Shown in pieces: positions 18,848-63,491 of a stretch of DNA of 64,000 nt. Positions within the stretch are counted from its first letter, which is position 1. The number at the start of each line of letters is the position of its first letter. Under the pieces are notes generated by a model. That model worked only from the letters and a program-made list of their open reading frames with translations. It did no database searches and was not told where the DNA came from. The position numbers and the translations under genes were made by a program. Origin of the DNA: Nitrospirota bacterium (lineage in GTDB: Bacteria > Nitrospirota > Thermodesulfovibrionia > Thermodesulfovibrionales > Dissulfurispiraceae); the NCBI GenBank assembly GCA_040752355.1, contig JBFMHE010000009.1, positions 1-64,000 of the forward strand. The letters run 5' to 3'.

Positions 18848-21031
18848 CTAGAACTTGTAGGCGACCGTGGCGAAGACCACGTTGGCGTTGTACGACTGAT
18901 CCGCGTAGGCGCCGGTCAAGAACGTATTCGGTGTAGCAATAGGGAAGGCGAATATGTATCCGTCAAGCGTTGCGTCATTATACTTATACTGCTCATAAGC
19001 ATATCCCGCGGAGAGAGAAAACGCCTTTGTGACATTGAAGATGACCTTGGCTATGAAGAGGTCTTTCCGGTAGTCGTCCCAATTGTCGATATCGATGTTC
19101 TCGTTGGTGCGCCCCAGCGTAAGCGCATCGGCAAAGAAGTAGGTATAGTCCGCGGACCCGTCGGAATCCACATGGTTATACTGGAGCTGAAGCGTCAGCT
19201 TCCTGGGAATGAGATAGATGTCGGTAGCGGCTCCGTAGTCGTAGCTCTCGTTGACCTGCGTAACGTCCCAGTTAAATACAGGGCCCCCCGGAGGAGGCGG
19301 AGGAACCAGCACCACAGGCGGGACGGTCGGATCCATCAAGCCGGCATCCGCATTGAAAGGAGCCTGGCGCTGGAATTGATACAGCTTGGTCCTTTCGTAG
19401 TCGAAGTAGGCAAACAACCGTGCAAATCTCCCTATGGCGTAATCCGCATCGACATTGAATTCATACCTCTTGTCATCATGCAGACCGAACACCGTATCCT
19501 TATAGTCCGACTTTTTGTATTGGAACCCGAATCCCACGTTAAGAGCTTCCAGGGGATACAGCTCAACCGACGCCCGGTACGTATCCCTGTCCTGCGGCCC
19601 TGCATCGAACCTCCTCAGGAAAGGCTCGACCACATCTGCAACGTCCTGCTCTGCCTGAACACCCGTAACGACCGTCAACTGCCCGTGCTCCGCATCCCTT
19701 TCGAGCCGCTCGTACCCTGCCCTGACAGTCAGGAAGTCGAGCCCGGTCCACCGCGCGTCGATCGAGTAGATGTCGTCCTCGGTCTCCGGGAGGTCCTCCC
19801 TGCTCCTGTTGGTCTTCACATATTTGTAGGCAGGAGTAATATGGAAATTCGCCGGCAGCCTGAAGCCGAGCTCGATGCCGGCGCTGTTTTTATGATAGTC
19901 GAAAAGCCGGTTCGTAAGAGTGACGCCGCTCCCGCTGTCGGTATGGGTTATCCTGTCGGACTTGTTTTCCCATTCATAATACCGGTAGAAGAGCTTGGTA
20001 TCCAGGAAGCGTACAGGACGCGATGTCAGGGCAAAAGCGTAATTCTGGGTATCGATCTTCCCGTCAAACGTAGTCCTTCCTCCGTAATCGACGCTCGCAG
20101 CAGCACCTTCAAAAACATAGGAGGTAATAAGCAGCGGGTTTGACTCTTTTCTCGAAAAGCCGAGATTGACATCGAACTTGCTGTTGAAGGGGAGATTGAC
20201 TGCTCCTTTAAAACTTCCCTTGTAATACTCGTTGCCGGGCGGAAGACTCGTATTGTCGACGCCGCCGGTCACCGGGTGCTGAAAGCTCAACACCTCGTTG
20301 TCATTGTCGAAGTTGCTGTACAGGAAGCTCACCGATGCATACAGGGGCTTCCTCGAGTAGCCCGCCTCTGCTTTCAAGGTATTGGTCACATAGTCGATCG
20401 GCGCCGGAAGCTCTACAGCCCCCTGTCCCGGGGTGCCTGTTGAGGCGGCCGTCGGTCTTATGCCGTCCCGCTCTTCCCTCGCTGCCGAGACATCGAAGAA
20501 AAACGGTCTTATCGCGTCGAGTCGTATACCGCCGCCGTACTGTTTACGCTTCAGGGAGTAATCAAAGGCATTCCATGCGTCAGCTATCGTGACATCACCG
20601 GGGGCAAGAGGGATAGGCGCTCCGGTGAGGCTCCCCGTGCCGATGCCTGAATAGAAACTCCGCGCTCCATAGGTGATGTTATGAGGAATCTCATCGTAGA
20701 AAAAATCGTATTTGAATTTCCCCCATATGCCGCCGCTGAGATCGTACCGCTGGTTGTCGAAGCCCCAATCTTCGCTGTTATGGGCATAGCCGAAATTCGC
20801 CGCTTTGAGATCGAAGTAGTATCTCCCGCTTTCGTAGCCGAGCCGGATGTCGCCGTACACGCCGTCCTGGGTGTCCCGGTACTCATTGAACTTCGCCTCG
20901 CTGCCGTTCACCTCCGTGAGCATGCCGGTCACACTGATGCCGCCTTCCATCTTCTTTTCCTCAGCGACAGCATTCGACGAGAGCGTCATGAGCCCTAGTA
21001 TGATTGCAAGGGTAATCAACGTTGTTTTCAT
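18848..21031 (-). CDS. MtrB/PioB-family outer-membrane beta-barrel (copy 1)
   Basis: 727-aa barrel of the MtrB/PioB decaheme-associated family, which sheathes a periplasmic decaheme cytochrome in the outer membrane for electron transfer. A Sec signal peptide (MKTTLITLAIILGLMTLSSNAVA) is visible. Family features are FNEYRDTQDGVYGDIRLGYESGRYYFDL, the EIPHNITYGARSFYSGIG segment, periodic amphipathic strands with aromatic girdles, and a terminal Phe (VAYKF). The N-terminal CXXC of Shewanella MtrB is absent. It is last in a four-gene operon, 13 nt after the copy 1 cytochrome, and is paralogous to the barrel at 22197-24350. Confidence 0.88.
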   Translation of the reverse strand: MKTTLITLAIILGLMTLSSNAVAEEKKMEGGISVTGMLTEVNGSEAKFNEYRDTQDGVYGDIRLGYESGRYYFDLKAANFGYAHNSEDWGFDNQRYDLSGGIWGKFKYDFFYDEIPHNITYGARSFYSGIGTGSLTGAPIPLAPGDVTIADAWNAFDYSLKRKQYGGGIRLDAIRPFFFDVSAAREERDGIRPTAASTGTPGQGAVELPAPIDYVTNTLKAEAGYSRKPLYASVSFLYSNFDNDNEVLSFQHPVTGGVDNTSLPPGNEYYKGSFKGAVNLPFNSKFDVNLGFSRKESNPLLITSYVFEGAAASVDYGGRTTFDGKIDTQNYAFALTSRPVRFLDTKLFYRYYEWENKSDRITHTDSGSGVTLTNRLFDYHKNSAGIELGFRLPANFHITPAYKYVKTNRSREDLPETEDDIYSIDARWTGLDFLTVRAGYERLERDAEHGQLTVVTGVQAEQDVADVVEPFLRRFDAGPQDRDTYRASVELYPLEALNVGFGFQYKKSDYKDTVFGLHDDKRYEFNVDADYAIGRFARLFAYFDYERTKLYQFQRQAPFNADAGLMDPTVPPVVLVPPPPPGGPVFNWDVTQVNESYDYGAATDIYLIPRKLTLQLQYNHVDSDGSADYTYFFADALTLGRTNENIDIDNWDDYRKDLFIAKVIFNVTKAFSLSAGYAYEQYKYNDATLDGYIFAFPIATPNTFLTGAYADQSYNANVVFATVAYKF

Positions 21032-21044
21032 TTCATCACCTCCC

Positions 21045-21983
21045 CTATCTCACGAACCGCAGGCCATGCGTCCCGGGCCCGTTGCTTCCGTGAATGTTCG
21101 TGTGGCAGTTCAGGCAGCTCCGGCCGACGAGCTTATTCGATATGGGAACAGTAACGCCGGGAGGCTTGATGAAGGCATCGGCCTGCGTGTATGCAGTCGC
21201 CGGATGGCCGCTCCATTCGTGGCAGCTCTGGCAGAGCTGCGGCAGTTTCTTATCGAGAAGCCGGTTATGGTTGCTGCCGTGGGGAGTGTGGCAGGTCAGG
21301 CAGTTCTCTTCGACCGGGGGATGCTCCCACATGAAGGGGCCGCGCATTTCTGCATGGCACTTATAACAGAGCTCGTTGACCGTGTCGGCCTTGATCATCT
21401 TCGGGTTCATGGTCCCGTGGGTATCGTGGCAGCTCGTGCACATCACTTTTCCCTCACGTATGGGGTGGTGCGACTGTTTATTAACCTGAAAGTTGATGCT
21501 CCGGTGGCAATCGAAGCAGAGGTCGGGCTCCGGTCCTCTCAGGTTCTCGTCGCCGCCGAAATGCGATGAATGGCACTGGTCGCAGGAGACGCCTGACGAC
21601 TGGTGCTCGCTCAGGTTCCAGAAGGCGAGATGCCTGGAGTCCTCGTGGCAGGACAGGCACTGTGCCGACTTCTTCTCGGCAGCAACGCCCCGTTCGAACG
21701 TGAAGATACCGGTGCCTCTCCCGCCGCCTTTCTGAACATGTTCCGCTCCGGGCCCATGGCACGACTCGCAGCCGAAGCTGCTGGCAGGGGTGCCGGGCAC
21801 CGCCTTTTTGCCATGCACCGAGCGCGCATAGCTTTCGTAGTACGCCTCATGGCAGCCCCTGCAGGTTTCGGAGCCGACATAGCCCGCCTTGCCCGCCGTA
21901 TCGCGCTGCGACAAGGCGCTCCCCGAAAAGATGACCAGCGAGGAGAGAAATATGACCAGCAACAAGATTACCTTTTTCATCAT
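21045..21983 (-). CDS. DmsE/MtrA-type periplasmic decaheme c-type cytochrome (copy 1)
   Basis: 312 aa with a Sec signal peptide (KKVILLLVIFLSSLVIFSGSALS) and ten CXXCH heme-binding motifs: CRGCH, CESCH, CLSCH, CDQCH, CFDCH, CTSCH, CYKCH, CLTCH, CQSCH and CLNCH. The number, spacing and SSVSCDQCH-like segments match DmsE/MtrA/PioA proteins, which pass electrons across the outer membrane inside an MtrB-like barrel. Paired ATGs at 21983 and 21980 follow GAGGGGG. The barrel gene follows after 13 nt. Maturation needs a cytochrome c assembly system that is not encoded in the window. Confidence 0.93.
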   Translation of the reverse strand: MMKKVILLLVIFLSSLVIFSGSALSQRDTAGKAGYVGSETCRGCHEAYYESYARSVHGKKAVPGTPASSFGCESCHGPGAEHVQKGGGRGTGIFTFERGVAAEKKSAQCLSCHEDSRHLAFWNLSEHQSSGVSCDQCHSSHFGGDENLRGPEPDLCFDCHRSINFQVNKQSHHPIREGKVMCTSCHDTHGTMNPKMIKADTVNELCYKCHAEMRGPFMWEHPPVEENCLTCHTPHGSNHNRLLDKKLPQLCQSCHEWSGHPATAYTQADAFIKPPGVTVPISNKLVGRSCLNCHTNIHGSNGPGTHGLRFVR

Positions 21984-22196: not shown

Positions 22197-24350
22197 CTAG
22201 AACTTGTACACCAATCCTGCGAAGAGTATGTTCGCCCTGTATGACGGTGCGCTGTAGGCCCCGGTTAATGTGCTCACATTCGCCTCCGCGGTACCGTAGG
22301 AGTACTGATATCCATCTACAGCGATATCGTTATAGGTGAACTTCTCGTAAGCGTACCCCCCGGTTATGCCGAGCCTTTTGCTGACAGCATACTTCGCTTT
22401 CACGCTGAACGCAGTCTTCCTGTAGTCATCCCAGTTCGAAATATCACTAGTTTGGGGAGGCGGCCCATCAAAGAAGGAAAAATCCGCAAACCCGTCCGAC
22501 TTCATACGATCAAACTGCACATTGAAGACTAACGTTTGTGGGATCGCGTCTATTTCAGCGCCTATACCGTAATTATAGGTCTTGTCCTTCTGATCCAGTC
22601 GCCACGTATACTGATACGTAGTGGTATTGGTAAAGAAACTGGCGGCGTTCGGATCGAGGCCCGCACTTGAGGTGCTCGCGCGTTGCACCTGTGATACCTT
22701 TGTCTCCTCGTACTCTACATAGCCGCTCACCGCAATAAAACTGTTTATTCTCCAATCAGCATCTATACCGTACTCATTCGTCTTATCATCTCTCAGGCCA
22801 AGGACGGTATCGGTGAATTCGGATTTCTTGTTTTTGTAATGCAGACCGAAGCTAAGTGTGTCCAATGGATAGATATCAATCGATGCCTTATAGGTATCAC
22901 GATCCATTGGAGCGGCATCGAAACGCCTGATATACGGCTCTACAACATCTGCAGCAGCCTGGTCGGTTGCAAAGAGGGTTTCCGTTCTCCCTTTCGTAGA
23001 CTGCCTGTCCAGCCTCTCATACCCGACCTTCGCGGTCATAAAGTCCACGCCGCTCCACTTCAAATCCACTGCATAGATGTTATCGGTCGTCTCGGGCAAA
23101 TCCGTCCTGTTCCTCTTGGTGTTCAGACGCGAATAGGCCGGCGTCAAGGAGAACTTGGCCGGGAGCTTGACATCGAGCTCCACTCCGTAGCTCCTTTTCT
23201 CGTAATCAAAGAGGTGGTTAAAAAATTGGCTTCCGCCGTTGACGTTAGAATCTGTGTGACCAATCTCGTCGGACTTGTTCTTTTTATCGTAGTACTTGTA
23301 AAATGCTTTTGCGCCGAGAAAACCCACTGGTCGTGAGGTAAGGACAAAAGAGTAACTATTAGCAGTGAGCTTACCGTCAAATTCCGAATCGGTTAAAGTA
23401 ACCTCCTGAATGCCGCCAGCGACATCTCTTACCCAGTAGCTTTTGGTGGCATTCAACATGGGGAACGCGAAGTCCGATCTTGTATCTGAACGGGCAATAT
23501 TGACATTCAAGGCGCTGTAGAGGGGAAGCTTTACTACACCTTTGAAGCTGTAATTATGGTACTTGTTATCTGGCGGGAGCGTTAAATAGTCGTCTCGCGT
23601 AGCATTCAAGGTGTTAATGCTATTCGGATTCACAAAGAATAATTTATCCTGCTCATTCGAAAACTCACTGTAGAAGTACGCAAATGAAAAGAACACGGGA
23701 TTCTTTGCATATCCTACTTCGGCCTTGAGGCTGTTCGTTACATAGTCAACCGGCTCCGGGATCTCTGCAAAGAACGAACCGCCTCCGGTTCTCAATGCTA
23801 CCCCGGCAGGCTTGATGCCGTCACGATCTTCTCTGGCGTAGGATAGATCAAGGTAAAGCGGTTTCAACACATCCAGTTTAACGCCTGCTTCGAACTGCTT
23901 TCTGTCTACCGAGTAATCAAAAAAATTGGTGGGATCTGCATTCGCTGGCACCAGAACAGCGCCGGTCGTCAGCCTGTATGTTCCGGCCCCGCTGAAGATT
24001 GTTCTGGCATTATAGGTAATATTATGGGGAATTTCATTGTACTTGAGATAGAACTTGAATTTTCCCCACATGCCGCTTTCAAGCTTGTAGCTCTGGGTAT
24101 CGTACGCTATATCACCTGCATTGAATTTCATGAAATACCGGTTGTTGTCGTACTTCAGGCGGATATCTCCATACACTCCGTCCTGGAGATCCCGGTATTC
24201 ATTGAACTTCGCCTCGTTTCCGTCCACATTCACAAGCTTCCCGACAGCCTTGATCTCGCCGCTCAAGGGCTTCGCTTCATCTGCATAGGCTCCGGTGCTC
24301 AGCAAGAAGAGCGCGCAGAGAACTGCCGTATATGTTAATATCTTTTTCAT
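22197..24350 (-). CDS. MtrB/PioB-family outer-membrane beta-barrel (copy 2)
   Basis: 717-aa barrel with a signal peptide (KKILTYTAVLCALFLLSTGAYA). It aligns end to end with copy 1: FNEYRDLQDGVYGDIRLKYDNNRYF, KFYLKYNEIPHNITYNAR, RPVGFLGAKAFYKYYDKKNKSDE, DLPETTDNIYAVDLKWSGVDF and a terminal VYKF. It has no CXXC. AGGAGG precedes the ATG at 24350. The base composition looks slightly more AT-rich than copy 1. It partners the decaheme cytochrome 11 nt upstream. Direction of electron flow (metal reduction or oxidation, or DMSO-type respiration) cannot be told from sequence. Confidence 0.88.
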   Translation of the reverse strand: MKKILTYTAVLCALFLLSTGAYADEAKPLSGEIKAVGKLVNVDGNEAKFNEYRDLQDGVYGDIRLKYDNNRYFMKFNAGDIAYDTQSYKLESGMWGKFKFYLKYNEIPHNITYNARTIFSGAGTYRLTTGAVLVPANADPTNFFDYSVDRKQFEAGVKLDVLKPLYLDLSYAREDRDGIKPAGVALRTGGGSFFAEIPEPVDYVTNSLKAEVGYAKNPVFFSFAYFYSEFSNEQDKLFFVNPNSINTLNATRDDYLTLPPDNKYHNYSFKGVVKLPLYSALNVNIARSDTRSDFAFPMLNATKSYWVRDVAGGIQEVTLTDSEFDGKLTANSYSFVLTSRPVGFLGAKAFYKYYDKKNKSDEIGHTDSNVNGGSQFFNHLFDYEKRSYGVELDVKLPAKFSLTPAYSRLNTKRNRTDLPETTDNIYAVDLKWSGVDFMTAKVGYERLDRQSTKGRTETLFATDQAAADVVEPYIRRFDAAPMDRDTYKASIDIYPLDTLSFGLHYKNKKSEFTDTVLGLRDDKTNEYGIDADWRINSFIAVSGYVEYEETKVSQVQRASTSSAGLDPNAASFFTNTTTYQYTWRLDQKDKTYNYGIGAEIDAIPQTLVFNVQFDRMKSDGFADFSFFDGPPPQTSDISNWDDYRKTAFSVKAKYAVSKRLGITGGYAYEKFTYNDIAVDGYQYSYGTAEANVSTLTGAYSAPSYRANILFAGLVYKF

Positions 24351-24361
24351 TCCCGTTCCTC

Positions 24362-25282
24362 CTATCTGGTGAATTTAGGGCCTCTTCTGCCGACTCCGAA
24401 GCCACCATGGATGTTCGTATGGCAGTTGAGGCACGAGCGTGCGACCAGCTTGTTCCTGCTCGATAACGACCCTGCCCCTCCGAAGCCGAACTCAGCTGTA
24501 TAAGGAACACCGGGATGCTGGGTCCAGTCGTGACAGCTCTGGCAGATATTAGGCATCTTCTTTGTCAGGAGCTTGTTATGATTGCTGCCGTGTGCCGTGT
24601 GACAGATCATACAGTTCTCCTCGACCGGAGGATGCTCGAACATATACGGACCCCTCTTCTCTGCATGACATTTGTAGCAGAGCTCGTTCACGGTATCCGC
24701 CTTCACCATTTTCGGGCCGAAGGAGCCGTGCGGGTCGTGGCAGTCGCTGCACGAGACCTTCCCCTCTTTTATAGGATGATGGGACTGCTTGTTCGTCTGG
24801 TGCCTTATGTCGCGGTGGCAGCTGTTGCAGAGCTCGGTCTGTTTTTCCTTCAGGCCTTTGTAGCCGCCGCCGTGGCCGGAATGGCACTGATCGCAGGAGA
24901 CGCCGGCGGATTTGTGTTTGCTCATATTCCAGAACGCAAGGTGCCTGGATTCCTCGTGGCAGGAGAGGCATTGAGCCGATTTCGCCTTCGCCTTTTCCTT
25001 CCGGTCGAAACTGATAATGCCGGTATCCTTTCCGCCGCCCTTTTCCACATGGGCGGCGCCGGAGCCGTGGCAGGACTCGCAGCCCGCGCCCGTTGCCGGG
25101 CTGCCGGGAATGGACTTCTTCGCATGGATCGAGTGCGCATAGCTTTCGTACGCCGCCTCGTGGCACCCTTTACAGGTATCGGCGCCTGCATAACCTTTGC
25201 CGCCTTCAGCAGCACTTTGAGATGAAAAAGCCATCGTGCAGACCAGCAGCAGGATGGGTACGACCGGTAAGAAGCGTTTCAT
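24362..25282 (-). CDS. DmsE/MtrA-type periplasmic decaheme c-type cytochrome (copy 2)
   Basis: 306 aa with a signal peptide (RFLPVVPILLLVCTMAFSSQSAA) and ten CXXCH motifs: CKGCH, CESCH, CLSCH, CDQCH, CNSCH, CSDCH, CYKCH, CMICH, CQSCH and CLNCH, in the same order and context as copy 1. AAGGAGG lies 7 nt before the ATG. It is the first gene of the four-gene operon. About 80-100 nt upstream is a CRP/FNR-type palindrome (25363-25378), pointing to respiratory control. No extracellular MtrC-like multiheme protein is visible nearby, as in PioAB/MtoAB-type systems. Confidence 0.93.
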   Translation of the reverse strand: MKRFLPVVPILLLVCTMAFSSQSAAEGGKGYAGADTCKGCHEAAYESYAHSIHAKKSIPGSPATGAGCESCHGSGAAHVEKGGGKDTGIISFDRKEKAKAKSAQCLSCHEESRHLAFWNMSKHKSAGVSCDQCHSGHGGGYKGLKEKQTELCNSCHRDIRHQTNKQSHHPIKEGKVSCSDCHDPHGSFGPKMVKADTVNELCYKCHAEKRGPYMFEHPPVEENCMICHTAHGSNHNKLLTKKMPNICQSCHDWTQHPGVPYTAEFGFGGAGSLSSRNKLVARSCLNCHTNIHGGFGVGRRGPKFTR

Positions 25283-31499: not shown

Positions 31500-31865
31500 C
31501 TACGCATTGCCGACCGGGCCGCCCTCCGGCATATCGGGACTGCTCCGGCGGTAGAGCTCTGCCGCGGTCAGGCCCACGTCTTCGAGCATCTCCCGGTGGG
31601 CGGCAGCGACCCTGGTGAGCGGCACCATCAGGGTCTCGGCGACCTGGGGGAGCGCCAGCCCTTTGCCGTAATGCAGCTCGGCAATCTGGACTTTGAGAGC
31701 GTCGTCGAGAATATATGTCTTCAGCTCCTCATCCGGCACATCTATAGCAGCGCAGGCCTCGTTGAAGGAGAGCCCGTTCTGCATGCCCTGCTTTATCTTC
31801 GCCATTGCTTCGTTATAGATCTTGTCCTCTTCGGGCGTATACTGCTTGTACTGGGGATCGGGCAT
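31500..31865 (-). CDS. Unknown helical protein, possible DNA-binding
   Basis: 121 aa, almost entirely helical, with two segments that could be helix-turn-helix (GLSFNEACAAIDVPDEELKTYI and GLALPQVAETLMVPLTRVAAAH). I do not recognise a named family. AGGAG precedes the ATG at 31865. It is read into the glutaredoxin gene 9 nt downstream and probably shares its transcript. Confidence 0.7.
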   Translation of the reverse strand: MPDPQYKQYTPEEDKIYNEAMAKIKQGMQNGLSFNEACAAIDVPDEELKTYILDDALKVQIAELHYGKGLALPQVAETLMVPLTRVAAAHREMLEDVGLTAAELYRRSSPDMPEGGPVGNA

Positions 31866-31940: not shown

Positions 31941-32094
31941 CATGCAGAGGAGGGGGCGAGGTGAGGCATTTGGAGCAGCATGGGCAGCCCAGGCGAAGCC
32001 AGGATGGCAGAGCGGGCTGCCCCGCCTCGGAGGACGGCGTGGATGCCGTCCGAGAATGAGCACAAATGCTCCGCCTCGCCCCCTCCTCTGCATG
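31941..32094. repeat. Long structured inverted-repeat element, family A (copy A)
   Basis: The outer arms 31941-31961 and 32074-32094 are perfectly complementary over 21 bp and continue inward with GU-compatible pairs. Inside, GGGCAGCCC pairs with GGGCTGCC, and GGACGGC / GCCGTCC forms a second hairpin (32032-32051). The core from about 31971 to 32061 is shared with the element at 46165-46300, but the outer arms are different sequences. Not coding. Confidence 0.75.
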
Positions 32095-32114: not shown

Positions 32115-33530
32115 TTACGAGGCTTCGGGGAGGTCTTTGCAGATATCGGGGTAGAGATTCCTGGCGCATTCGGGGCAGATGCCGTGGCTGAAGACCGCAT
32201 CGGAGTGGTCGTGGATATAGACCTCGATCTGGTTCCAGTACCCCCGGTCATCGCGGATTTTCTTGCAGGAGGCACAGATAGGCAGCAGCCCGCTCAGCAC
32301 TTTCACCCGCGCGAGCGCGTCCCGCAGCTGCGCGATCAGCTGCTCCCGCTCGACCTCGGCCTGCTTGCGCTCGGTGATGTCCTCTCCGGAGCTGAGCGTA
32401 GCCGCGACAGCGCCGTGCCGGTCCCGCAGCACCGCATTGCGCCAGGCGATCAGCCGCTCTCCCTTCTTCGTGATGACGGGATTTTCGAAATAGTCGGCCG
32501 GTTCGACATTTCCGGCTATCAGCCTCTCGAACCCGGCTCTTACGCTGCCCCGTATCCGCTCCGGCACGAAGAGATCGAACCAGTTTTTTCCCACGATATC
32601 CTGCTCCCGGAGCCCCAGGACCTCGCAGCCCTTGCGGTTGATAAGCGCCACCTTCTGGTCCGCGCCGATCGCGAGCAGGATGACGCCGGCGATGTCGAGG
32701 TATTCCTGCAGCTTATTCTTCTGCTCCCTGAGCAGCTCCTCGCTCTGTTTCAATTTGCGGAACAGGAGATTGTACGGCTGCTCGAGCCCCGTCTCGATGA
32801 TCGCCTTGTAGATGCAATAGAACGAAACGATCTTGAGATAGTGGCCGATCATATTGGAGAAGCCGTAGAGGTGGACATAGATCGTGAAGGAGAGCTCCGT
32901 TCCTATCGTCGCGATGATCGAGAGCACCAGCAGGCGGAGCACCCGCGGGTCGAATTCCCGGCGCTGGCGCAGCAGGAGCACCATCGCCCCGAGGAGGATT
33001 GCGCAGATGACGTACTCATTGATGATCTTGAAGCGCGTCAGTCCCACCCCCTTGACGAAGGCCGCAGGGAACACCTGCCAGTAAAAAATGGTCGTCAGCA
33101 TGAGCGCGCTCACGGCAGCGTAGACGAAGAACGCTGCCGGCGCATGCAGCTTCCTCCTGATGAACCAGGGGGCGACGAGGAGCGAAACGCTCTCCACATA
33201 GCGGGCGACGAGCCATATCTGGGGAGGGAGGTTATCGTCATCATATCCCCTGAAGACCCCCATCCCCTTGTAGGCGAGCGTGTGGAGCAGGTCGAGGCCT
33301 GCGACGAAAAGATAGGCGACCCCCAGCAGCAGGAGATAGTCGTTGTTCATGAAGCGCCGCGAGTGCCAGGCGATCATGAACATGCCGCAGGCGATGACGA
33401 TGCTGAAAATCTCGGCGATAGTATGGAAAAGAAGATAATTTCTGACCTGAATAATGTAGAGCGCCAGGAGGACAAGAACGCCGACGAGGATCGTCAGCAC
33501 GGTGCGGATCAGCGACGATTGTCTCTCCAT
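32115..33530 (-). CDS. MASE3-like membrane sensor with PAS domain and CxxC tail
   Basis: 471-aa inner-membrane protein. About seven or eight transmembrane helices (residues about 8-225) with LLGVAYLFVAGLDLLHTLAYKGMG and ARYVESVSLLVAPWFIRRK indicate a MASE3-type sensor. A coiled linker and a PAS domain with ENPVITKKGERLIAWRNAVL and SSGEDITERKQAE follow. The end carries LSGLLPICASCKKIRDDRGY and, later, ICPEC: two CxxC pairs that could bind zinc. No kinase, GGDEF, EAL or HD-GYP output is present, so how it signals is unknown. The ATG at 33530 or 33545 may start it. Confidence 0.85.
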   Translation of the reverse strand: MERQSSLIRTVLTILVGVLVLLALYIIQVRNYLLFHTIAEIFSIVIACGMFMIAWHSRRFMNNDYLLLLGVAYLFVAGLDLLHTLAYKGMGVFRGYDDDNLPPQIWLVARYVESVSLLVAPWFIRRKLHAPAAFFVYAAVSALMLTTIFYWQVFPAAFVKGVGLTRFKIINEYVICAILLGAMVLLLRQRREFDPRVLRLLVLSIIATIGTELSFTIYVHLYGFSNMIGHYLKIVSFYCIYKAIIETGLEQPYNLLFRKLKQSEELLREQKNKLQEYLDIAGVILLAIGADQKVALINRKGCEVLGLREQDIVGKNWFDLFVPERIRGSVRAGFERLIAGNVEPADYFENPVITKKGERLIAWRNAVLRDRHGAVAATLSSGEDITERKQAEVEREQLIAQLRDALARVKVLSGLLPICASCKKIRDDRGYWNQIEVYIHDHSDAVFSHGICPECARNLYPDICKDLPEAS

Positions 33531-33594
33531 GATACTCTCTCTCATTCAGGGTACTGGCAGGGTACCGGCAGGCCGCGGTCCGGCCGTACCGTGG

Positions 33595-44769: not shown

Positions 44770-45987
44770 TCATTTCTCTTCGATTGTTATCGCTGCGCCG
44801 CTCTTGAGCCCTTCGGGAGGGTTGACGACGACCCGGTCGCCCGGCTTCACCCCGCTCAGGACCTCGACGACATCGCCGATGCGGCTTCCGAGCGTAACCG
44901 CGGTCAGCACCGCCCGGTCTTCCCTTACCACGAATACGACGCTCCTGCCGTTGCGGGAGACGACGGCAGCGGGATTCACCGTCACCCGCGGATACTGCTC
45001 CTTCTCGGGCACCGGCTGGGAGAGGAAGGCGACCTTCGCGCTCATCTGGGGCAGTATGCGTTTATCCTTCTCGAGAAAACGGACCTTGACCATGACCGTC
45101 GCCTTGGTCCGGTCCGCAGTGGGGACGACCATATGAACTGCGCCGTCGAAGCGGCTCTCGGGCAGCGCATCGAGCTGTATTACGCTCGGCTGGTCCGTCC
45201 TGATCTTGCCGATATTCGATTCGGAGACATCGGCCTCGACCTGGAGCGACTCCATATCGGCGATGGTCACGACCGCAGCCTGGACATTGGCGGCAGCGCC
45301 GATAGGGGTAATGATGTCTCCTACATCGGCATTCTTCGTCAGGACGACGGCGTCGAACGGAGCGCGGATCAGCGTATACTCCACGTTGACATCGGCCCTC
45401 CTGAGCGCAGCCTGTGCAGCCCTGATCGCGGCCCGGGCACCTTCGACCGCGGCCTCCGCCTTCCGGTAACGGGCGAGCGCGGCATCGTACTCCGCCCTGG
45501 TCGTATAGCCCTGCTCGAGCAGCCCCTTCTCGCGGGTGAAGCTGGCTTCGGCATCGCGCAACTCGGCCTGCGCCTGCTCGAGCTCCGAGCGGGCCACGTT
45601 CAGCCGGGCGGCTGCTTCGTTCCTCGCTGCTGCCACATCCTCGCTCTCGAGCCTGGCGATGATCTCTCCTTTTCTTACGCGGCTCCCCTCCTCGACGCCG
45701 AGCCAGACGAGCCTGCCGGTGGTCTTCGCCGAGACCGCGGCCTTGCGCTGGGCCACGACATACCCGCTCGCGTTAAGGACCGTCTGCGCCTGGTAGGGAT
45801 AGGTCTGCGAAACGGTCGCCACCCTGACCGCTGCCGCAGGCGTGAAGACGCCGCTCGCATAGAGAACGACCAGCGCGAGGATGACGACACCCGCCGCTAT
45901 CCAGTAGAACGGTTTCCTGCGCCGTGCAGGACGGAATCCCGCGGACGATTTATCAATACGTAATTTCGAAAGATCCTCATTGGCCAT
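44770..45987 (-). CDS. HlyD/MacA-type periplasmic adaptor
   Basis: 405 aa. One N-terminal membrane anchor (KPFYWIAAGVVILALVVLYASG, about 26-47), then a lipoyl half (GYVVAQRKAAVSAKTTGRL), a coiled-coil hairpin (about 105-190), the second lipoyl half (LIRAPFDAVVLTKNADVGD), and a beta-barrel/membrane-proximal region ending GLKSGAAITIEEK. It would link the inner-membrane ABC complex with an outer-membrane channel to export a drug, lipid or peptide. It is first gene of the operon; no TolC-like gene is in the window. Confidence 0.92.
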   Translation of the reverse strand: MANEDLSKLRIDKSSAGFRPARRRKPFYWIAAGVVILALVVLYASGVFTPAAAVRVATVSQTYPYQAQTVLNASGYVVAQRKAAVSAKTTGRLVWLGVEEGSRVRKGEIIARLESEDVAAARNEAAARLNVARSELEQAQAELRDAEASFTREKGLLEQGYTTRAEYDAALARYRKAEAAVEGARAAIRAAQAALRRADVNVEYTLIRAPFDAVVLTKNADVGDIITPIGAAANVQAAVVTIADMESLQVEADVSESNIGKIRTDQPSVIQLDALPESRFDGAVHMVVPTADRTKATVMVKVRFLEKDKRILPQMSAKVAFLSQPVPEKEQYPRVTVNPAAVVSRNGRSVVFVVREDRAVLTAVTLGSRIGDVVEVLSGVKPGDRVVVNPPEGLKSGAAITIEEK

Positions 45988-46036: not shown

Positions 46037-46088
46037 AGAGCGTCTAACGGAATGAGGAGGGGGAGTCGGTCATTTCGTTAGGGGCTCT
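46037..46088. repeat. Intergenic hairpin repeat, family D copy 2
   Basis: AGAGCGTCTAACGGAATGA pairs with TCATTTCGTTAGGGGCTCT (16 of 19 positions by strict complementarity) around a GGAGGGGGAGTCGG loop. The right arm is identical to 1644-1662. It lies 50 nt upstream of the adaptor start. Confidence 0.65.
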
Positions 46089-46164
46089 AAACAATTATAG
46101 CAAATAGCAGCGTTGCTTACGGGAAAGCGCAGAATAAGAATCCCTAACAAAATAATGCAGCATG

Positions 46165-46300
46165 GAGTCGGACGAGGTATAGTATGTGGAGCGGTATCAG
46201 CAGCCCGAGCGGAATCATGGATGATGGAGCGGGCTGGTGCCTCGGAGGACGGCTGGATGCCGTCCGAGAATGAGCGAACATACTGTGCCTCGTCTGACTC
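46165..46300. repeat. Long structured inverted-repeat element, family A (copy B)
   Basis: The outer arms 46165-46187 and 46278-46300 pair over 23 positions; all three deviations are GU on the plus strand. The core repeats copy A: CAGCCC...CGGGCTG stem, then CTCGGAGGACGGC and GATGCCGTCCGAGAATGAGC. The outer-arm sequence is unrelated to copy A although the pairing is kept. Confidence 0.75.
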
Positions 46301-46374
46301 CCCTGCTCATTCAGTTAGCGCTCTACGAACGCACGAGGCAGTTATGGAAAAAAGCATTGCCCGGAGAGGCAAGG

Positions 46375-46410
46375 AGACAAGGGCGGAGCCGGAAGGCTCC
46401 GCCCTTGTCT
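46375..46410 (-). terminator. Terminator hairpin of nifHDK
   Basis: A perfect 16-bp stem (46375-46390 with 46395-46410) with loop GGAA starts inside the nifK stop codon. T-rich sequence appears only about 20 nt later. Confidence 0.75.
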
Positions 46411-47933
46411 CATCTGATAACGTCGAAGCTCGTGGTGTGCATGGTCTTTCGATCCATCTCGTCGAGGACCGTATTGACCACCCAGTTCACGAGGTTGATC
46501 ACGCCCTGGTAGCCGATGACCGGGTAGCGGTGGAGATGATGCCGGTCGAAGAGGGGGAACCCTATCCTGACGAGCGGGGTGCCGGTATCCCTCCAGAGGA
46601 ACTTCGCATAGGAGTTCCCGATGAGCAGATCGACGGGATCGGTGAACAGCAGGGAGCGCAGGTGCCACATATCCTTGTTGACGTAGACCTTTCCCTCGCT
46701 GCCGAACGGGCTCTCCGCGAGGAGGGCGGCCGCCTCCTCTTCGAACTTCCTGTCGCCGTTGGTGCAGACGATGTGGACCGGGACGCCGCCCATCTCCATC
46801 ACGAAGCCGATCAGTCCGAGCAGGAGGTCGGGATCGCCCACGAACGCAAACCGCTTGCCGTGGACATAGGCATGGGAGTCGACCATCGCATCGACCGCCC
46901 GGCCCCGTTCATCCTCGATCTCCCGGGGTACCGGCTTCCCGGTGATGGCGCTCAGTGCTTCGAAGAAGGCGTCGGTGTTCTTTATGCCGATCGGGGGCAG
47001 GACCGCCGTCTTCTGCTCCCACTCCTTCCTTATGTACTCCATGGTCTTCAGGGTCGAATATTTCTGGAGCGCGATGGTCGCCCGTGCATTGATCGAGTCC
47101 GCCGCGCCGGCGAGCGGCGTGCCGCCGGGATAGAGCTTGTACTCGCCCGTGTTGGGCGAATCGAAGGTGTCGCTCACATCCGCGAGAATCGTATGCTTCA
47201 CGCCCATGATGTCGAGGAGCCGCTTCATCTCGCGGTAGTCTCCCGTGTAGGTGTCGAAGCCGGGGATGATATTGACCGTGCCGTTCGGCTCGCCCTTCTT
47301 GCCCGCGGTGATGGTCGAGAGGATCGCCTTGAGCTGGTTGTCGTACCCCGTGATCTGCGAGCCGACGAAGCTCGGCGTATGGGCGAAGGGCACCGGCAGG
47401 TCCTTCGGGATGGCGCCCTTGTCCCGCGCCGCCTTCACGTACGCATTCAGGTCGTCGCCGATCACCTCGGCGATGCAGGTGGTCGAGACGGCGAGCATCT
47501 TGGGTTTATAGAGGGCGTACGCATTCTCGAGGCCCTCGAGCATGTTGTTGAGGCCTCCGAAGACGGCTGCGTCTTCGGTCATCGAGGTAGAGATCGCTGC
47601 CAGCGGCTCCTTGAAGTGCCGGTTCAGGTGGCTCCTGAAGTAGGCGACGCAGCCCTGCGCTCCCTGGACAAACGGCATGGTCCCGGCGAACCCCGCTGCG
47701 CAGAAGATCGCCCCCAGCGGCTGGCACGCCTTGGCAGGGTTGATCTTTATGTGCTGCCGGGCGAAGTTCTTCTCCTTGTACTCCTCGGTCTTCGTCCACT
47801 CCGCGACCTCCTGCACCGTTTCGGCAGGCCACGGCCTCTCGAACTCCCTCTTCCGCTCGAATTGCTCGAGGTACTCCTGCTCCCGGAACAGGTCGTTGTG
47901 GTCTTTCACCTGCATCAGCTTCATCGCTTTCAT
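46410..47933 (-). CDS. nifK: Nitrogenase molybdenum-iron protein beta chain
   Basis: 507-aa beta subunit of MoFe protein. P-cluster cysteine contexts are [29 protein letters not shown] and [13 protein letters not shown], with [13 protein letters not shown] and [18 protein letters not shown] also conserved. The ATG at 47933 is fixed by GGAGGAAG upstream and by the ATGA overlap with the nifD stop; a longer open frame upstream is only the nifD shadow. It is shorter at the N-terminus than group I proteobacterial NifK, compatible with an anaerobe-type nitrogenase. Last gene of nifHDK. Confidence 0.96.
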
Positions 47934-49357
47934 TTCTTCCTCCGTATAAGGCTCCAGGTCGGGCTGTTCACCGTCATGTCCATATCGCGCGCGAATACCG
48001 GGAAGCCGTCGAAGCCGTGATAGGGGCCCGAGTAGTCCCATGAGTGCATCTGCCTGAAGGGCACTCCCAGCTTATGGTAGGAGTACTTCTCCTTGATGCC
48101 CGAGCCGACCATATCGGGCCTGAGCCTCCTCGTGAGCTCCTCCAGCTCGTAGAGCGTGGCGTCGTCCATGATGACCGCGCCCTCTTTCATCTCGGGATAG
48201 GTCCTCTTGTAGTCGTCGCTGTGGCCGAACTCGTAGCCCGACGCCACGACCTCCATCCCGAGGTCCTCGTAGGCGCCGATCGTATGCCGCGGCCGCAGGC
48301 CGCCCACATAGAGCATCACCTTCCTGCCTTCGAGCTTCGGCCGGTACGTTGCGATCACCTCGTCCATCAGGGGTTTGTACTTCGCGATCAGCTGCTCGGC
48401 CTTCTCCTTTACCGTATCGTCGAAGAGGGAGGCGATCTTCCTGATGCTCTCGTATATCTTGGTCGGGCCGAAGAAGTTGAACTCGACCCAGGGTATCCCG
48501 TACTCCTCTTCCATGTGCCGGCAGATGTAGTTCATCGAACGGTAGCAGTGGATGAGGTTCAGCTTCGCCTTGTGGGCGATGCCCATCTCGTTGACCGAGG
48601 CGTCCCCAGTCCACTGGGCGATGACCCTGAGACCCATCTCTTCGAGGATCTTCCTCGACGCCCAGGCATCGCCGCCGATGTTGTAGTCGCCGATAAGCGC
48701 CACGTCGTAAGGAGTCGAGGTATCGAGCTGTCCCGTGCCGAGCACATGGTCCTTGATCGTGTCGTTCGCGATGTGGTGCCCGAGGGACTGGCTCACCCCC
48801 CTGAACCCCTCGCACCGCACCGGCACGATCGGCATCTTGAACTCCTTCTGCACCTTCTTCGCCACTGCCTCGATGTCATCCCCGATGAGTCCTACCGGGC
48901 ATTCCGAAAGGATCCCGATGCCTTTGGCGAGCGGGAAGAGCTCCTTCAGCTCGTGCAGCGCCGCGTCGAGCCCCTTGTCTCCTCCGTAGACGATATCCTT
49001 CTCCTGGAAGTCGGTGGTGAACTGCATGGCGCCGAACGTATCGATACCGGTCTGTCCGTTGTAGTAGTTCCTCCGCGACCACCAGCTGTACTGCCCGCAC
49101 CCGATGGGGCCGTGGCTGACGGTGATCTGGTCCTTCACCGGTCCCCAGACGACGCCCTTCGCCCCTGCATAGGCGCATCCCCTGACCGTCATGACGCCAG
49201 GCCGCGACTTGATGTTCGACTTGACCTGGCAGGCGCTGCACTGGCCGCTCGGATCGTTGGCAGCCAGGTGCTTCGCCCGGTCCTTCTTCGCCTTTTCCGG
49301 GTAGGCTTCCAGGACCTCCTCTATCATTTTCTGCGTATCTTTGATCGCCGTGCTCAT
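47930..49357 (-). CDS. nifD: Nitrogenase molybdenum-iron protein alpha chain
   Basis: 475-aa alpha subunit carrying the FeMo-cofactor. P-cluster cysteines sit in [33 protein letters not shown] and [12 protein letters not shown]. FeMoco ligands are Cys in [12 protein letters not shown] and His in [15 protein letters not shown], and LGHHIAND holds the active-site His. These identify a Mo rather than V or Fe-only enzyme (no anfG/vnfG between D and K). Starts at 49366 and 49357 are possible; AGGAGG spacing favours the latter. The gap to nifH carries a hairpin that may tune stoichiometry. Confidence 0.96.
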
Positions 49358-58045: not shown

Positions 58046-58120
58046 GGGCGATTAGCTCAGTGGGAGAGCGCTTCCTTCACACGGAAGAGGTCGTGGGTTC
58101 GATACCCTCATCGCCCACCA
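58046..58120 (+). tRNA. tRNA-Val (CAC)
   Basis: 75-nt cloverleaf including an encoded CCA. Acceptor GGGCGAT/ATCGCCC, D-arm GCTCAGTGGGAGAGC, anticodon stem CTTCC/GGAAG with loop TTCACAC, T-arm GTGGGTTCGATACCCTC. Anticodon CAC reads GUG. Confidence 0.95.
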
Positions 58121-58136
58121 TTCTTTTCTTTTCAAA

Positions 58137-58266
58137 AGCTCTCAGCAATCAGCCGTCAGCTATCAGCAAAAAACAAAGAAAGTAAGTATCTGCGTAAAGC
58201 CGCCATCAAAATATGCTGAGAGCTGAGAGCTGAGAGCTGATAGCTGAGAGCTGATTGCCGATGGCT
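58137..58266. repeat. AGCTGATAGCTGA-type inverted repeat (family H copy 1)
   Basis: AGCTCTCAGCAATCAGCC...AGCTATCAGC (58137-58167) pairs with tandem GCTGAGA/GCTGATA words (58215-58266). Related words flank the four-helix-bundle gene at 60.1-60.5 kb. Confidence 0.65.
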
Positions 58267-58828
58267 ATTTCCCTTCTATCAACGTGCTGAAGCACGGGGC
58301 GTGGCGGATGTTCCGGTAGGTCTTCGAGGTCTTCAGGTAGGTCCAGTTGGTGTAGCCGTTCTCTATCGCCTTGCGCAGCCAGCGGCAGGCCTCGTCCGGC
58401 TGGTCCTTTGCCGCGCAGAGCTCGGCCATGCTGTTGAGGGCGTAGACGTTCTTCGGGTTCATCTCCAGAGCGCGCGTGATGTCCCGCTCCGCCTCGGCGA
58501 GCTGTCCGGTCAGCAGGTAGACGAAACCGCGGTTGTTGTAGGCCATATCGTTATTCGGATCGAGCGCTACCGCACGGTCGAAGTCGGCGATCGCCTGTTC
58601 GTAATAGCCGATCTCCTGGTAGGCGTTCCCCCTGTTGATATACGAGGGAAGGAAGTCGGGGTTCAGCTCGACGGCCCGGTCGAAGTCGGCAAAGGCGCGG
58701 CGGTACAGGCCTTTCTTGAGGTAGGCGAGGCCGCGATTATTGTAAGCGCCGTAGCTCTTCGGGTTCGCCGCAATAACCTTCGTGTATTTGTCGATGGCGT
58801 GGTCGTACTTTCCCTTTTTATCCATCAC
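58265..58828 (-). CDS. Tetratricopeptide-repeat protein
   Basis: 187 aa built of four to five TPR units: YDHAIDKYTKVIAANPKSYG, AYNNRGLAYLKKGLYRRAFA, DFDRAVELNPDFLPSYINRG, AIADFDRAVALDPNNDMAYN, AERDITRALEMNPKNVYALN. No signal peptide or membrane segment, so probably a cytosolic scaffold for protein-protein contacts. Partner unknown. A last degenerate repeat ends with CRWLRKAIENGYTNWTYLK. Confidence 0.88.
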   Translation of the reverse strand: MMDKKGKYDHAIDKYTKVIAANPKSYGAYNNRGLAYLKKGLYRRAFADFDRAVELNPDFLPSYINRGNAYQEIGYYEQAIADFDRAVALDPNNDMAYNNRGFVYLLTGQLAEAERDITRALEMNPKNVYALNSMAELCAAKDQPDEACRWLRKAIENGYTNWTYLKTSKTYRNIRHAPCFSTLIEGK

Positions 58829-59854: not shown

Positions 59855-60131
59855 TAAATTGCAATCTGAAATCGCGGGCGCGGAAAGACATGCCACGCGA
59901 CAGGAGCAGCAGGAGCCGATCTCGTCACTTTTTTGACCATGTTTCCGCAATTCACATTGTGTTGCCGATTGACCACAAAAAAGATTGACACCCCAACAAC
60001 TGTTTTTATTTACATTTCAATATCTTATTTATACATAACCTTATGGCACAGGAGTTGCTACTTACAATATCCGGTTGCATCGATCTTTGAAAACAGCTAT
60101 CAGCTATCAGCTATCAGCAAGGAGGCTCGGG
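59855..60131. other. AT-rich intergenic region
   Basis: Lower-GC gap between the Xre gene and the four-helix-bundle gene. It ends in tandem AGCTATCAGC words (60095-60118). I see no gene in it. Confidence 0.5.
60095..60118. repeat. Family H repeat, left of the four-helix-bundle gene
   Basis: Three tandem CAGCTAT units, complementary to the right-hand copy at 60515-60546. Confidence 0.6.
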
Positions 60132-60491
60132 TTGCGAGACTTCAAAGCCTTAAAGGTCTGGCAGAAGAGTCATCGACTGGTGCTGGCGGTTTATACAGCT
60201 ACCCGGTCGTTCCCGAAAGAGGAAGTGTACGGGCTTACAAGCCAGATTCGGCGCTCCGCCTCCTCTATAGCCGCTAACATCGCCGAAGGCTGCGGGAGAA
60301 GCGGCAGCAGTGAGCTGAGCCGATTCCTGCACATAGCGATGGGCTCCGCAAGCGAGCTTGAATATCACCTGCTACTTGCGTGCGACCTTGATCTGGTGAT
60401 AGCTTCTGAGTATGAGGAGCTATCGACCGCGGTGAGCGAGATCAAGCGAATGCTCACCGCCCTGATAAAGAAGCTGAGGGCTGAAACATGA
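60132..60491 (+). CDS. Four-helix-bundle protein (23S rRNA intervening-sequence type)
   Basis: 119 aa. LRDFKALKVWQKSHRLVLAV, SQIRRSASSIAANIAEGCGR and ELSRFLHIAMGSASELEYHL are the family signature; these proteins are often encoded within rRNA intervening sequences or free in genomes, and the function is unknown. I chose TTG 60132 because AGGAGG lies 6 nt upstream and family proteins start at this point. It is framed on both sides by complementary family H repeats, suggesting a small mobile cassette. Confidence 0.85.
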   Translation: MRDFKALKVWQKSHRLVLAVYTATRSFPKEEVYGLTSQIRRSASSIAANIAEGCGRSGSSELSRFLHIAMGSASELEYHLLLACDLDLVIASEYEELSTAVSEIKRMLTALIKKLRAET

Positions 60492-60514
60492 GAGTTTTTG
60501 CTGTTGATATTTCG

Positions 60515-60546
60515 CTGAAAGCTGATGGCTGATAGCTGACAGCTAG
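60515..60546. repeat. Family H repeat, right of the four-helix-bundle gene
   Basis: GCTGAAAGCTGATGGCTGAT and AGCTGACAGCT words, the inverted partner of 60095-60118. Confidence 0.6.
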
Positions 60547-60609
60547 TTTTTTTAGTTGCCGTACGCCGCCCTTGGCGGTGAAACTGAACTAACCTAGGAG
60601 GGTTAGGAA

Positions 60610-61986: not shown

Positions 61987-62013
61987 CAACAACCGTAATG
62001 CGTCACGCGTGAC

Positions 62014-62069
62014 GCGTGATGCGTGAAGGACTCAAAAGGCGGCTGCTTCGGCAGCCGCCTTTTTTGTTT
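62014..62069 (+). terminator. Porin terminator, first copy of a 56-bp direct repeat
   Basis: Hairpin AAAAGGCGGCTGC-TTCG-GCAGCCGCCTTTT (62034-62063) followed by TTTG. Positions 62014-62069 are identical to 63436-63491. Confidence 0.9.
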
Positions 62070-63352: not shown

Positions 63353-63435
63353 CGATTCTCTGCTCTCTGGATAACTCCGGAGAAGGAGGCTGAAAAGAAG
63401 CATCGGCGCTAAAAATAAAGATCGTAATGCGCAAT

Positions 63436-63491
63436 GCGTGATGCGTGAAGGACTCAAAAGGCGGCTGCTTCGGCAGCCGCCTTTTTTGTTT
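63436..63491 (+). repeat. Second copy of the 56-bp porin-terminator direct repeat
   Basis: Identical to 62014-62069, including the full terminator hairpin (63456-63485). No porin gene precedes it. Confidence 0.92.

Follow-up and report, generated by a model that had tools for sequence, protein, structure and literature searches.

What are the two hairpin-rich repeats in the window, a stretch of 64,000 nt (positions 1 to 64,000 of contig JBFMHE010000009.1, assembly GCA_040752355.1) from a Nitrospirota bacterium of the Dissulfurispiraceae? A first-pass annotation, made from the letters alone, had described two copies of a core of about 90 nt with two hairpins, enclosed by outer stems of unrelated but still complementary sequence, and had suggested an RNA structure under selection or else a mobile element shaped like a hairpin, with no match to a named noncoding RNA class. 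We found that copy A (31941–32094) and copy B (46164–46301) both have cores of 90 nt, and that the core hairpins CAGCCC/GGGCTG and GGACGGC/GCCGTCC as well as GAGAATGAGC are common to the two. The outer-stem sequences of copies A and B are indeed unrelated to each other. The arms of copy A (31941–31972 and 32063–32094) are 32 nt long and 91% complementary, with one A-C mismatch among the departures, and the 24-nt arms of copy B (46164–46187 and 46278–46301) form 21 Watson-Crick and 3 G-U pairs with no other departures, just as had been described. With short flanks, the predicted folding energies are –113 kcal/mol for copy A and –85 kcal/mol for copy B; compared to dinucleotide shuffles, these correspond to z values of –8.5 and –7.9, and none of 200 shuffles folded as well. 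Comparison of copies across genomes indicates that the element is a previously unnamed repeated hairpin-RNA family found in several bacterial phyla, and it appears to be both a selected RNA structure and a hairpin mobile element.

The annotation had proposed a covariance-model search and a test of covariation across copies, and we carried out both. A BLAST search with copy A found approximately 45 copies in the 3.57-Mb genome to which the window belongs, and a covariance model based on 24 of them found 48 (E ≤ 1e-11), so the pattern seen in copies A and B is not due to chance. The copies are dispersed and intergenic, and a genome can hold up to about 50 of them. Among related genomes, 32 of 60 carry the element (22 of 38 genera), and copy number varies from 1 to 26 within one genus. 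When we searched 84,980 species genomes for the junction pattern, at least 120 stretches matched; among those listed, most are from Nitrospirota, and there are others from Desulfobacterota, Latescibacterota, Handelsmanbacteria, a Candidate Phyla Radiation genome, Gemmatimonadetes, Sulfurimonas and Halorhodospira. Pattern matches in Lachnospiraceae (L097), Streptomyces (L122) and Pyrinomonadaceae (L109) were each a single isolated hit and were therefore set aside as chance, and the fold of L097 has no outer stem; a single match in a viral contig was likewise rejected, as no outer stem surrounds it. Plasmid and phage collections gave no match to copy A at the sensitivity of a distant BLAST search. 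Rfam gave no relevant match at the gathering threshold or at E values up to 10, in agreement with the annotation, and the open literature that we searched held no description of the element.

All copies share a common architecture, in which a three-way junction (GAGCGG – hairpin 1 – CCUCGGA – hairpin 2 – GAGAAUGAGCG) is closed by a long outer stem. The constant parts are the closing pairs (GC/GC), the basal pairs of hairpin 1 (GGC/GCC), a CUC-GGA bulge below hairpin 2 and a joining strand, GAAUGA, that is unpaired. The helices, on the other hand, are arbitrary: the sequences of the outer stem and of the hairpins vary freely while pairing is retained, and in copy L217 hairpin 1 is a long, wholly unrelated palindrome. 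The annotation was thus right that the outer stems are swapped but missed that the hairpin stems are swapped as well. There are two main outer-stem subfamilies in this genome (at least two were seen), a CGGAGGGGGCGAGGCGAGGCATTTG-type and a GAGTCGGACGAGGCATAGTATGT-type, the latter with additional ends TTAGAGC..CTAAC...GTTAG..GCTCTAA. The hairpin-2 stem occurs in four or more interchangeable versions (GGACGGC, GACGGGC, GCAAGGC and GGTCG), the first three of which occur in both subfamilies. Extra nested hairpins are present in some copies (L016, L021, L026, L028, L311 and L312). Four of these are long forms from this genome, L028 (C15:38110), L311 (C13:78262–78584), L026 (C19:73383) and L312 (C5:175618–175856), with nested hairpins that have 3-nt loops, for example CCCCAAAAAGAC-GTT-GTCTTTTTGGGG and CCCCGAAGATC-GAA-GATCTTTGGGG, located within hairpin 1 and the GAAUGA joining strand. 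In two further copies, L113 and L146, the outer stem is a perfect palindrome, of at least 70 bp in the former and 54 bp in the latter, possibly an artefact of assembly in short contigs.

To quantify pairing, we aligned 92 copies from diverse genomes to the covariance model; this alignment is fitted to the model and hence leans towards it. Paired cells made up 92.9%, both sides had changed in 41 of 46 pairs, and covariation scored 0.639, as compared to 0.161 for shuffled and at most 0.102 for slid alignments. A repeat with 26 separately fetched copies gave 0.539 versus 0.165. Co-ordinated arm changes are also seen between copies at an orthologous site (L236 versus L207).

Covariation of this kind could be a by-product of DNA palindrome correction, in which template switching at a quasi-palindrome restores pairing with no selected RNA; the opposite orientations at orthologous sites described below could also arise by template switching across the inverted arms. 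We examined the outer arms by strand-symmetric ungapped arm extension, which is independent of the covariance-model alignment. In 164 distinct copies we counted 3525 Watson-Crick, 215 G·T, 45 A·C and 221 other pairs, these being counts over copies and not independent events. When each element was scored in the same strand-symmetric way, G·T was in excess in 108 elements and A·C in 12. Palindrome correction or neutral decay would give G·T and A·C in equal numbers; the bias therefore identifies the GAGAATGAGC-bearing strand as the one that folds. Because palindrome correction is strand-symmetric, and because it would not produce the loops linked to csrA described next, we regard it as very improbable. 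Taken together, these comparisons indicate that the fold is selected, and on one strand.

What would such a fold be for? Beyond what the annotation had noticed, we found that the apical loops have the consensus (C)ANGGA(U/C)G in most copies from csrA-bearing genomes, most clearly in hairpin 1. The SELEX (systematic evolution of ligands by exponential enrichment) consensus of the CsrA/RsmA site is RUACARGGAUGU with GGA in a hairpin loop, and a CsrA dimer bridges sites that are 10–63 nt apart (PMC7652899). The median GGA-to-GGA spacing in the element is 36 nt, and 83 of 84 spacings fall within 10–63 nt. We scored csrA status by PF02599 and the loops for GGA, which is expected by chance in approximately 6% per loop. 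In csrA-bearing genomes, 117 of 134 elements have a GGA hairpin-2 loop (and 93 of 134 a GGA hairpin-1 loop), in contrast to 12 of 54 hairpin-2 loops in genomes lacking csrA (p 1.3e-17). By genome, GGA is the majority form of the hairpin-2 loop in 30 of 33 with csrA and 4 of 26 without it (p 3e-9); for Nitrospirota alone, the numbers of GGA-majority genomes are 18 of 18 and 2 of 19 (p 1.2e-8). When one random element was drawn per genome, the worst p was 5e-5. Copies from other families of the order, fetched later and not pooled as some of the genomes may duplicate named drafts already counted, show the same trend: families f7, f9 and f12 and genome G046 of f5 have csrA and GGA hairpin-2 loops (except copy L297 of f12), and f2, f11, f13 and genome G034 of f5 lack both csrA and the typical GGA hairpin-2 loop. 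Family f5 therefore holds both states, G046 having csrA and GGA loops and G034 neither. By this scoring, the loops carry a CsrA-type motif mainly in genomes that have csrA, and functional CsrA binding by the element RNA is strongly suggested.

On balance, we consider it probable that the element is a structured RNA, dispersed or mobile, and that in hosts with CsrA its hairpins bind this protein and probably sequester it. Two features of a CsrA-sequestering small RNA are present, namely multiple GGA-loop hairpins and a CsrA encoded by the host. The amplifying intergenic repeat would be transcribed, and the plus-strand RNA would fold as a conserved three-way junction atop a long outer stem. One CsrA dimer would bridge both loops, whose separation of 36 nt lies inside the span of 10–63 nt, and the copies, as many as about 50, would jointly titrate CsrA in the manner of CsrB or RsmZ. 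The setting would be bacteria whose CsrA adjoins the protein antagonist FliW, and in this genome csrA is located between flgL-like and fliW-like genes. The junction, which genomes lacking csrA retain as well, is probably recognised by machinery that spreads or processes the element.

Sequestration is the likeliest use of CsrA binding; its chief rival is that CsrA regulates the element. Under this rival reading, which we think unlikely, the GGA loops serve the element itself, and host CsrA silences, stabilises or destabilises its RNA as a switch rather than being titrated. That the junction is kept without csrA makes CsrA look like an add-on, and the antisense bias described below is independent of csrA, both in favour of this reading; however, neither a mobilising gene nor an RNA intermediate is known, and approximately 100 sites per genome would affect CsrA anyway if they are transcribed.

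Several observations weigh against CsrA sequestration. Some genomes lacking csrA keep GGA loops (G009/JASEGS, 96% complete; G010, 66% complete; and the small drafts JAIPEK and DQWO), some copies in csrA-bearing genomes have no GGA loops, and host phylogeny was controlled by the phylum-restricted and family-level contrasts only. A signal scan of the elements found no enrichment of promoters, terminators or U-tracts on the folding strand. Where the flanking genes, called with a simple home-made scorer, are co-directional, the folding strand is antisense to them in 62 of 88 cases (62 versus 26), and this bias is alike in genomes with and without csrA. Finally, we found no mobilising enzyme among those examined, the PF01797 Y1 transposases. 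Stop codons do lie close to the elements (median approximately 20–40 nt in co-directional arrangements), which would suit a hairpin acting in cis in a 3' untranslated region as an mRNA stabiliser, attenuator or terminator, as with REP/BIME (repetitive extragenic palindromes and bacterial interspersed mosaic elements). We give this reading very little weight: where the neighbouring genes are co-directional, it is mostly their antisense strand that is under selection, the stem has no U-run after it, and a simple stem would need neither a conserved junction nor GGA loops.

Does the element move? Copies are present at a site in one genome and absent from the orthologous site in another (L061 versus L104, L136 versus L176 and L202 versus L147), and related species can have the element in opposite orientations at the same intergenic site (L209 versus L088/L238, L214 versus L090 and L239 versus L143), which suggests inversion across the arms. 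From these differences, together with the swings in copy number, we infer that the element is mobile. It could then be hairpin mobile DNA like REP or the miniature inverted-repeat transposable elements (MITEs), recognised in a single-stranded form whose folding produces the G·T bias, with GGA loops of some other cause. We judge this improbable. The dispersed copies, the presence and absence and the flips at orthologous sites, and persistence in csrA-lacking genomes all fit it, and the Y1 transposase family (PF01797) is present in 9 of 10 element-bearing as compared to 3 of 7 element-free genomes. However, it leaves the tracking of csrA by the GGA loops unexplained, and no terminal sequence is conserved across the family, as the arms are unrelated between subfamilies and species. 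PF01797 (the RAYT family) was rejected as the mobiliser, since none of the six PF01797 genes of this genome is within 5 kb of an element and genome G022 has 32 copies without a PF01797 hit. The family-wide conserved terminal inverted repeats that would mark a MITE of a DDE transposon are lacking; common ends (TTAGAGC...GCTCTAA) are confined to one subfamily of this genome. Solo outer-stem palindromes that might have been pre-existing targets were not seen apart from core-deleted remnants. Any target-site duplication would be masked by the palindromic ends, the orthologous sites are not clean, and no clean empty site with a target duplication was obtained. The ends of the copy-B subfamily (in this genome and in L061 of G015) resemble the R''/R' boxes of integron attC sites, RYYYAAC / GTTRRRY; these boxes are confined to that subfamily, and its copies are dispersed rather than arrayed.

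How does the element compare with known systems? CsrB/CsrC and RsmX/Y/Z are many-hairpin RNAs from a single gene or a few genes. The element resembles them in that GGA occupies the apical loops of its hairpins, in having several unpaired GGA per RNA and in its loop consensus, CANGGAYG, which is close to the SELEX site RUACARGGAUGU (PMC7652899). It differs in being dispersed as up to about 50 copies, in each of which a three-way junction bears two hairpins, in having no promoter signal, and in occurring also in genomes lacking csrA. Dispersed intergenic palindromes near stop codons in tens of copies also recall REP/BIME and RAYT; in contrast to those, the element is 150–250 nt long with a conserved internal junction, arbitrary arms and strand-biased covariation, and it is unlinked to PF01797 genes. 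ERIC- and RUP-type MITEs are long imperfect intergenic palindromes with nested insertions in some copies. The element is likewise a long imperfect intergenic palindrome with nested insertions in some copies, but its centre is conserved and not its ends, and it has neither family-wide terminal repeats nor a demonstrated target duplication. The element also resembles TwoAYGGAY RNA (RF01731), which was proposed to bind CsrA (PMC4333381); however, the RF01731 model gave no match in this genome or the copies at E up to 10, TwoAYGGAY is reported from the human gut, gammaproteobacteria and Clostridiales, and the GGA loop is not obligatory in the present element.

Within the window, all parts of the element lie on the plus strand. 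In copy A, the core (31973–32062) between the two arms holds hairpin 1 at 31982–32022 (GGGCAGCCC...GGGCTGCCC, tip GCC-AGGAU-GGC), the conserved CCTCGGA at 32025–32031 that provides a junction strand and the GGA bulge, hairpin 2 at 32032–32051 (GGACGGC-GTGGAT-GCCGTCC), and the conserved GAGAATGAGC junction strand at 32052–32061. The apical-loop GGAs of hairpin 1 (32002–32004) and of hairpin 2 (32041–32043), 36 nt apart, are candidate CsrA sites. Copy A is flanked by two minus-strand open reading frames (31500–31865 and 32115–33545). The core of copy B (46188–46277) has a hairpin-1 tip ATCATGGATGAT at 46214–46225 with a candidate CsrA site GGA at 46219–46221, a hairpin 2 at 46247–46265 (GGACGGC-TGGAT-GCCGTCC) with a second candidate at 46255–46257, and GAGAATGAGC at 46266–46275. 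Extra terminal arms, the left one typical of the second subfamily of this genome, extend copy B on the left (TCCCTAACAAAATAATGCAGCAT, 46141–46163) and on the right (CCTGCTCATTCAGTTAGCGCTCTAC, 46302–46327). The neighbours of copy B are a minus-strand membrane-fusion-type frame (44770–45987) and a nifK-like frame (46410–48041), both named from reading of their translations. There are two remnants of the copy-B subfamily: a coreless palindrome with its terminal arms at 46037–46097, approximately 65 nt from copy B, and a decayed copy at 1564–1671 in which the core is deleted and the terminal arms and right outer arm are retained.

The window has other repeats as well. Inverted arrays of short CAGCTATCAGC / GCTGAGAGCTGA units are found at 58134–58269, where the array adjoins a tRNA gene (58046–58117), and at 60084–60549. 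Two terminator-like palindromes (62001–62069 and 63423–63491) are 93% identical, both with upstream GCGTGATGCGTGA repeats, and a diverged direct duplication of approximately 70% identity and 3.3 kb spacing (20832–21884 and 24148–25195) is probably coding sequence.

The element adds a large unnamed structured-RNA family that spans several phyla, and the presence or absence of csrA serves as a natural experiment that ties its RNA loops to a global regulator. A conserved junction with arbitrary helices raises the question of how the element is recognised and how it moves. As a wider and more tentative proposal, which we put somewhat below even chances, these mobile RNAs could act across phyla as a many-copy, genome-wide sponge for CsrA in FliW-type bacteria, a group with no established RNA antagonist of CsrA; the CsrA motif in their loops would come and go with the csrA gene of the host, and machinery that recognises the junction would spread the element with arbitrary paired arms. 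A dispersed repeat of a kind usually dismissed as junk DNA may set the level of free CsrA in bacteria where csrA adjoins fliW.
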